A stretch of 5,337 nucleotides of DNA from Natrinema soli (GTDB lineage: Archaea; Halobacteriota; Halobacteria; Halobacteriales; Natrialbaceae): contig NZ_JAQIVI010000394.1 in assembly GCF_028618695.1 (NCBI RefSeq), positions 1 through 5,337 on the forward strand. Direction: 5' to 3'. Each line of letters begins with the position of its first letter. The first letter of the stretch is position 1. The notes under the pieces are model-generated. The model was not told the DNA's origin. It saw only the letters and a list, made by a program, of their open reading frames with translations, and made no database searches. Below are positions 2,050 through 2,378 of the stretch, piece by piece. Both the position numbers and the translations under genes were made by a program.

Positions 2050-2378
2050 CCGCGAGCGAAGCGAGCGGTTTGCGACGAGAGAGCATCGCTCTCTCGGCAT
2101 CACGAAAGCGCGCTGAGCGCCTTTCGAACGACACCGCCGGAGCGGGCGAAGCCCGCGAAGGCGGCCTTTGTAGCGTAGATTTTTGCGCCAGCGCGGGACC
2201 GCCGGTCCCGCGTGCCATGCGAACGGGCGCTATGCGCCCGTGAGCAGACGAGCGGTTCCGAACGAAGTCGTTCGAAAGACGCTTTGCGTCTTTCGTGATC
2301 TTCAAAAGAGCGCTTTGCGCTCTTTTGGACCTCGCCGAGCTTTGCTCGGCTCAGTGACGAGAGATCGAAGGTCTCTCG
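2050..2378. repeat. Tandem array of about eleven distinct triloop hairpins
   Basis: Stems and loops (plus strand) are: 2050-2068 (CCGC, G/A mismatches, GC, loop GAA); 2076-2096 (9 bp, loop ATC); 2103-2126 (10 bp with a bulged C2109, loop TGA); 2134-2164 (CCGCC, purine internal loop, GCGGGC, loop GAA); 2192-2212 (9 bp, loop GCC); 2223-2241 (8 bp, loop TAT); 2259-2274 (6 bp, loop AAGT); 2273-2295 (10 bp, loop TTT); 2303-2327 (11 bp, loop TTT); 2334-2350 (7 bp, loop TTT); 2358-2378 (9 bp with one G-T, loop GAA). Ten of eleven have a three-base loop closed by a C-G pair, and eight have the core GC-NNN-GC. Stem sequences are different from one another. Gaps are often 6-7 bases, with a 27-base gap at 2165-2191. 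It could be a multi-hairpin RNA, a single-stranded-DNA structure, or debris of repeated palindrome formation. No function is assigned. Confidence 0.85.

Follow-up and report, generated by a model that had tools for sequence, protein, structure and literature searches.

The hairpin array at positions 2050-2378 of the window, the whole stretch of 5,337 nucleotides of Natrinema soli DNA analysed here, is probably a mosaic of mobile non-coding DNA: a skeleton belonging to an element designated family A, enlarged by at least four insertions of SMR-like modules of two hairpins each. We give this reading a probability of about 0.8. The module boundaries, the stepwise lengths of related copies, the nested order of the modules, an insertion difference that runs both ways, a spread through the whole class and pairing kept by double changes are established by the comparisons described below. 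A sequence-only reading of the array had offered three options, namely a structured RNA, a single-stranded DNA scaffold and the product of a hairpin-generating process. The last of them comes nearest, because the array is built by inserting two-hairpin modules and the pattern of changes fits template switching at hairpins; a structured RNA is not required by anything observed.

Eleven consecutive stems were counted in the window, in agreement with the sequence-only reading, which had described about eleven hairpins in a row. As read from the sequence, they are:

Stems 1 to 6: 2050-2069, 2076-2096, 2103-2126, 2133-2163, 2192-2212 and 2218-2246.
Stems 7 to 11: 2259-2274, 2273-2295, 2303-2327, 2334-2350 and 2358-2378.

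The three-base loops attributed to these hairpins are found in nine of the eleven; at 2259-2274 the loop comprises two or four bases, and at 2358-2378 it has three bases only if a T.G is counted as a pair. At least ten perfect or near-perfect stems of 6-11 bp had also been claimed. A scan for perfect arms detected arms of that length in eight hairpins, two of which are perfect in the inner part of the stem only, while the remaining three are flawed by a bulge, by tandem mismatches or by one T.G.

Comparison of the folding energy with shuffled controls, a check proposed together with the original description, gave a clear outcome: when the region 2040-2390 was folded as DNA (+ strand) and as RNA (+ and - strands), none of 100 shuffles was as stable in any of the three folds. 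The DNA fold reached -115.9 kcal/mol (z -8.6, 100 shuffles), and the RNA folds gave z -8.5 for the + strand and -8.0 for the - strand (100 shuffles each). In addition, no other 350 bp among 110 loci plus the window (about 1.65 Mb) are as rich in perfect stems with loops of 3-4 bases as the array, which has seven; the next three stretches have six. A PreQ1-III riboswitch was considered for the window and set aside as unsupported (21.5 bits against a gathering score of 63, E 0.52).

The position of the array between convergent genes was confirmed. Its left neighbour is a frame of 45 residues (1809-1946, + strand) with a match in 18 of 22 loci from relatives, and its right neighbour (2583-2888, - strand) is a putative DNA-binding gene resembling CggR_N, with a score of 24 bits where the Pfam cut-off is 30. 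Further upstream, a frame of 73 residues (1471-1692) has the look of a zinc finger, with a CxxC and a later pair of cysteines; it is matched in 7 of the 22 relatives' loci and has no Pfam match at E<=0.01. The PurA protein of the window is 96% identical to that of N. zhouii. At the locus of the 45-residue frame, N. zhouii has neither family A nor a second element, family B. In the closest relative found (G036, flank 93% identical), this position is occupied, as judged by eye, by a family A copy that lacks modules and belongs to a different left subtype. Another relative (G034) has family B there, starting after the same bases, CGATTAGT, as family A of the window. The filled state of the window array is therefore local. 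Downstream of the 45-residue frame, the bases CGATTAGT precede both elements, at 2011-2020 of the window for family A and at locus L343 for family B of G034. The motif CAGTA[CG]AG lies near the start of many copies of both families and is possibly a shared target or end signal.

The stretch derived from repeats is longer than the 2050-2378 originally delimited: the array is indeed there, and repeat-derived DNA extends from about 2018 to 2415, followed by one half of an unrelated repeat. The features recognised are as follows:

2018-2070, + strand: left end of family A, with recurrent alignment edges at 2018 and 2070; it joins 2132 directly in other copies.
2071-2131, + strand: module M1, two hairpins, in slot 1, delimited by steps in slot length among family A copies and by the paired changes of M1.
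2132-2189, + strand: core of family A, made of hairpin 2133-2163 and a T-rich stretch around TAGCGTAGATTTTTGC, with edges at 2132 and 2186-2189; it served as probe for 25 copies.
2190-2248, + strand: module S2, with hairpins 2192-2212 and 2218-2246, supported by recurrent 59-bp edges (query 9-67), paired changes and covariance model R1.
2249-2266, + strand: GAGCGGTTCCGAACGAA, right part of the family A skeleton and the hairpin into which an inverted M1 was taken up; other copies have the short form GGTTCCGAACGAAGTGAGGAA.
2267-2299, - strand: first half of the inverted M1 (hairpin 2273-2295), recognised by matches in opposite orientation to those of 2076-2136.
2300-2354, + strand: module M2 (hairpins 2303-2327 and 2334-2350), nested in the inverted M1, with recurrent edges at 2298 and 2354-2355.
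2355-2383, - strand: second half of the inverted M1 (hairpin 2358-2378), fused to the first half, without M2, at locus L170.
2384-2415, + strand: right end of family A, GAGGCGGAAAAAGGTACGTAGGC, a tail recognised in 14 of 25 copies.
2444-2481, - strand: right half of an unrelated miniature inverted-repeat element, of which full copies are found at loci L079, L130, L137 and L138.

The left end of family A closes with hairpin 2050-2069 (CCGC-GA-GC-GAA-GC-GA-GCGG), which contains tandem G.A mismatches, and the second hairpin of S2, 2218-2246, also has a tandem G.A internal loop. M2 lies between the two hairpins of the inverted M1, and its sequence (2298-2355) is also matched alone at other loci. 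Elsewhere, 2267-2299 and 2076-2136 match identical bases in opposite orientations. As read from the sequence, the inverted M1 of the window adjoins an arm complementary to its own end. The start of M1 is GTGGTTCGAG and the reverse complement of its end is GTCGTTCGAA, so that the module has imperfect inverted ends. S2 is 59 bp long and M1 61 bp, and the modules of the window range from about 55 to 61 bp; two inserts at another site, discussed below, measure 56 bp (L319) and 54 bp (L324). The view that no hairpin is a copy of another stands only loosely, as 2071-2131 and the two halves 2267-2299 and 2355-2383 represent one kind of module, present in both orientations.

Two side observations concern the right flank. 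The miniature element is 80-100 bp long, with terminal inverted repeats of the CTATAGTAGTCACTGAAA...TTTCAGTGACTACTATAG type (a full copy lies, for example, at 9200-9450 of L079), and similarity to N. zhouii resumes at 2485, beside the half that remains in the window. The region 1998-2485 also coincides with a rearrangement, as the N. zhouii match of the left flank lies about 33-35 kb away from that of the right flank.

When the DNA at 1950-2480 was searched for in the genus Natrinema, matches were obtained in 29 of 29 genomes, with 21 candidates scored per genome, which makes the counts per genome lower bounds. The same few starts and ends recur among the matches listed, and also in 139 alignments over 200 loci. 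At genome scale, the statement that the hairpins share an architecture and no stem sequence fails: the modules belong to dispersed repeat families, and every module of the window array has copies elsewhere. With copies dispersed through other genomes, a unique structured RNA and a unique scaffold were both rejected.

Copies of family A were recognised by the core (2132-2189), which yielded 25, and were classed by their lengths, pattern flags for S2 being too loose (for example in L171). Slot 1 is empty in eight copies, holds 60-61 bp in two (the window included), 111 bp in one and 116 bp in two, and was not parsed in 12. The distance from core to tail in the 14 copies that have a tail is 32-33 bp in seven, 92-93 bp in four, 152 bp in one and 206-207 bp in two, again including the window. 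Hence, the distances grow in steps of one module each. Individual copies differ in their nesting: L170 has M1 without M2, slot 1 of L175 and L167 holds an M1 with M2-type hairpins inside, and a related hairpin pair is found inside the slot-1 M1 of L165 in the other orientation. The core is sparse, with one occurrence in 400 kb of unselected G034 sequence; the other stretches compared were chosen around matches and are biased towards repeats. For 20 family A copies, the orientation of the neighbouring genes was convergent in four, divergent in three and codirectional in 13, compared with 67, 67 and 124 in background gaps, and no clear bias was detected in this sample, for which our own gene calls miss some small genes such as 1809-1946.

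Module S2 was found in 26 of the 29 Natrinema genomes, very often with identical 59-bp edges; up to 31 candidates were scored per genome, and counts per genome are again lower bounds. With the covariance model R1, built for S2, 195 of 242 genomes of the class gave a match at E<=1e-4; at E<=1e-9 the number was 122 of 242, with 22 candidates scored per genome and the same consequence for the counts. As a specificity check, the model was run on 1.55 Mb of haloarchaeal sequence (80 loci fetched by PurA), where it gave one strong match, the next having an E of 0.024.

The carriers of S2 are the skeletons of families A and B and an element of 487 bp amplified in N. gelatinilyticum. Ten copies of this element were retrieved, and pairwise comparisons among them gave 91-97% identity. 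Nine copies were aligned, leaving out the interrupted L259; they have unrelated flanks and constant ends, TTAG...TTCAC. The element has near-terminal palindromes and, by eye, neither terminal repeats nor target duplication, features of PATEs and IS605-type elements, and its end GTAGTTCAC is common to several TnpB transposons of the genus. An inverted S2 lies inside the left-end palindrome of this element, and the same site is uninterrupted in the TnpB transposon at L201; the SMR-A-like habit of inserting into a PATE or IS605-type palindrome is thus displayed by S2 in one carrier family. The window element of family A also has conserved ends, yet they are unlike those of TnpB elements, and no clean empty site came to light for it. 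Among 30 loci with a TnpB match (about 1.5 kb of flank each), any of seven motifs of family A, family B or the MITE was found in one only, a family B motif at the edge of the locus. The link to TnpB transposons runs only through the 487-bp element. Small differences among copies of that element were also seen: comparison of L258, L265 and L267 showed that a hairpin of L267 has three extra bases on both arms, and L265 has the loop GGA where most near-identical copies have TCC.

Family B is itself a second dispersed non-coding element, and a frequent one, with the layout TGCGGTGGCGCGCGCTG ... GCGCGAGGGATGAGCGA ... AATCGGCTGGGGAGGGCGTGGCGATTCC ... GCCACGATAGCAGG and variable hairpins between the conserved blocks (L160, L168, L176, L191 and others). 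Its 3' motif has 35 distinct matches with up to seven mismatches allowed, 12 of them between convergent genes, and three family B motifs occur 4, 5 and 8 times in the 400 kb of unselected G034 sequence.

One intergenic site could be located through its neighbouring gene in all 29 genomes, and at least four of them have a family A core there. At this orthologous site, L319 has a 56-bp S2-type module that is absent from L324, and L324 has a 54-bp hairpin insert, with an imperfect second hairpin, that is absent from L319. The L319 insert is recognised as S2 by the model (E 1.9e-10). Both inserts sit inside hairpins. A further case is L192, where an extra two-hairpin unit occupies the loop of the second S2 hairpin. 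Seven insertion positions were compared by eye (slot 1, slot 3, M2 in M1, S2 in the transposon palindrome, L319, L324 and L192): four of them lie at the tip of a hairpin, the other three at joints or in arms of larger palindromes. Terminal inverted repeats were not seen in S2 and are imperfect in M1. Filled and empty sites showed no clear target duplication, in surroundings too repetitive to judge.

Compensatory changes, proposed as a check in the sequence-only reading, were found in both modules examined, S2 and M1. In 31 copies of S2, selected for their similarity in sequence and for a 3' anchor (L181 and L111 lack the anchor and L114 and L123 lack one half, and all four were left out), 96.9% of cells pair and double changes are seen in 10 of 20 pairs. 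The cells with double changes number 38, compared with 5.1 in shuffles and at most 10 after sliding the partner by one to three bases. In 10 copies of M1, double changes occur in 4 of 19 pairs, with 6 cells against 1.1 in shuffles. Extension to 64 distinct copies of S2 aligned to the model gave 1211 Watson-Crick cells out of 1250, 13 G.T or T.G, 7 A.C and 19 of other kinds; these counts lean towards structure, as the alignment was fitted to a covariance model. G.T-type and A.C cells are so few that the data hardly indicate wobble pairs or the strand that is read, and the comparison of 13 with 7 as a strand test is not decisive. Of the 64 copies, 56 retain the tandem mismatch GA/GA, although template switching alone would give GA/TC; this points to selection on a folded strand and suggests that the strand is recognised by something. 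In the hairpin data surveyed, GA/GA and its complement account for 43 of the 266 two-by-two internal loops.

The loops are mostly of three bases, and both orientations occur within one oriented hairpin. Among the 64 copies, the first S2 hairpin has GGA (12) and TCC (6), GAA (8) and TTC (7), GAC (5) and GTC (5), and the second has TTC (14) and GAA (11), TGC (8) and GCA (0). Otherwise identical modules may differ by a flipped loop, as in L182 and L193 (TTC, GAA) and in L200 and L190 (GAC, GTC). Of 132 strictly related pairs, 87 have the same loop; a difference of one base is seen in 26, of two bases in 3 and of three bases in 16. In this last group, the two loops are exact reverse complements in six pairs and miss this by a single base in seven. 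The scarcity of two-base differences speaks for switching of whole loops. Exact reversals number 24-45, against 2.8-6.9 expected at 1/27. The count alone proves nothing, however, because permuting the loop pool yields about as many: under five settings, 37, 26, 17, 6 and 3 reversals were observed against permuted means of 30.9, 15.8, 20.6, 6.7 and 7.4, and the observed number never exceeded the permuted maximum. The case for loop flipping therefore rests on the scarce two-base differences and on single examples.

Several explanations other than insertion of mobile modules can be considered. One is that the skeleton is the gene of a structured non-coding RNA whose modules are expandable arms, kept because the RNA works. 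The strong folding of both strands, the paired changes in S2 and M1 and the strand-specific tandem G.A in 56 of 64 copies would agree with such a gene, and a halovirus PATE of 489 bp is reported, in the accessible text of PMC10544981, to be highly transcribed in part. Against it, G.T-type cells are rare (13 of 1250, with 7 A.C), modules occur in either orientation and in unrelated carriers, their number per copy varies from none to several, the orientation of family A relative to genes shows no clear bias in 20 copies, and nothing reaches an Rfam gathering score in the window, whose best match is sub-threshold, or in five loci searched, which gave no match. We regard an RNA gene as improbable. 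The idea that the hairpins are transcription terminators, or REP-like stabilisers of mRNA at gene ends, has even less to recommend it and seems very unlikely: the array is flanked by convergent reading frames, T-runs lie beside the core and 12 of 35 family B matches are convergent, while only 4 of 20 family A copies are convergent, compared with 67 of 258 background gaps, and N. zhouii has no such element at this place.

Other alternatives concern the means of movement. If the modules were minimal PATE-like substrates, a Y1 enzyme (TnpA) of the IS200/IS605 type might move them on single strands. They have hairpins, S2 has no visible terminal repeats and sits within the left-end palindrome of an element that ends like TnpB transposons, and PATEs of 52 bp consisting of termini only are described for Haloquadratum in the text available from PMC3119063. 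Yet S2 and Y1 counts are uncorrelated over 29 genomes (Spearman -0.08, P 0.68), and eight of the 29 genomes have no Y1 match, including G001 and G036, two of the five genomes with the most S2 (18 and at least 31 matches, respectively). By eye, S2 and M1 lack the TTAG/TTCAC ends of the 487-bp element, and a single locus out of the 30 with a TnpB match has a searched motif, at its edge. Mobilisation of this kind is rather unlikely; a past or since-lost Y1 enzyme could still have been the mover. A somewhat better, still doubtful explanation dispenses with a transposase, as modules might be propagated in the course of replication or repair, through template switching or ectopic copying from one hairpin to a similar one. 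Homogenised arms and inverted spacers are reported outcomes of inverted-repeat template switching (PMC8604942 and PMC8794818, in their accessible text), the inserts sit inside hairpins, and the inverted M1 of the window adjoins an arm complementary to its own end. What speaks against it is that GA/GA was not homogenised and that module ends are identical in many genomes and carriers, a recurrence that looks like that of a defined mobile unit.

Families A and B and the modules were not found in the literature searched, as far as its open-access text goes. The closest counterpart to the mobile modules is SMR-A of Haloquadratum walsbyi, described in 2011 (PMC3119063, accessible text) as short, free of transposase and of target duplication, with a mobilisation called "enigmatic", and as inserting into near-terminal palindromes of PATEs and IS605-type transposons. 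In shortness, lack of a transposase and insertion into near-terminal palindromes, the modules are alike. They differ from SMR-A as presented in that text in length (54-61 bp and two hairpins, compared with about 110 bp), in their ends (imperfect inverted ends in M1 and none seen in S2, compared with prominent inverted terminal repeats) and in the frequent nesting of module in module. We speak of SMR-like modules and not of SMR-A because SMR-A is about twice as long and has clear inverted ends. PATEs and terminal-only IS605-type elements, according to the portions available of PMC3119063 and PMC10544981, are likewise non-coding haloarchaeal mobile elements that bear hairpins. Ends of the PATE or TnpB type are present in the 487-bp carrier of S2 and absent from families A and B, and the modules occur in differing carriers. 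Small palindromes, paired units and clusters between genes are also typical of REPINs and BIMEs, which are grouped with the bacterial REPs. The REPs themselves (PMC3733652, text accessible in part) share with the modules the small palindromes, the paired units and the intergenic clusters. In contrast with REPs, the modules insert into hairpins, have many stem sequences and contain a tandem G.A internal loop; casual inspection of the modules revealed no REP tags (GTAG or CGTC), and over the 29 genomes the abundance of S2 does not follow that of Y1, the kind of transposase that goes with REPs or REPINs with RAYT. Loop reversal with arms kept, and arms made to match, are also known from minute inversions at plastid hairpin loops and from template switching (PMC8604942 and PMC8794818, accessible text); there they are described for single hairpins or genes, while here dispersed modules are involved.

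Recurrent ends, several unrelated carriers, occurrence in either orientation and nesting suggest that the modules behave as small mobile repeats. Their targets would be hairpins, entered at the tip of one or where two adjoin, and an array could then grow, because each inserted module brings new target hairpins. The inserting machinery may see a folded single strand or a cruciform. Template switching at hairpins would keep the arms matched and flip the loops, and might thus account for paired changes with few wobble intermediates as well as for flipped loops; the held GA/GA mismatch is not explained by it. No transposase could be tied to the modules. No sign of a host function for the array was detected in this analysis, and the array may be selfish or neutral. 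A more ambitious and only tentative proposal is that mobile DNA found throughout the class targets folded hairpins and grows by recursion, its unit being recognised by its fold and moved by a machinery other than Y1. Under that proposal, the target would be a fold rather than a sequence, each insertion at a hairpin tip or joint would create new targets, and the recognised fold might be the triloop stem with a conserved tandem G.A mismatch.

The enigma of SMR movement becomes amenable to testing with the material described here, as there are now units, ends, an orthologous site in filled and empty form, a target structure, and genomes that are rich in modules but gave no Y1 match. The modules also provide a natural series of hairpins in which selection can be told apart from arm matching and loop flipping by template switching, since the one internal mismatch GA/GA is retained as other parts of the stem change. 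Lastly, these observations carry a warning for genome annotation: intergenic DNA that folds strongly and covaries need not be an RNA gene and can instead be mobile.
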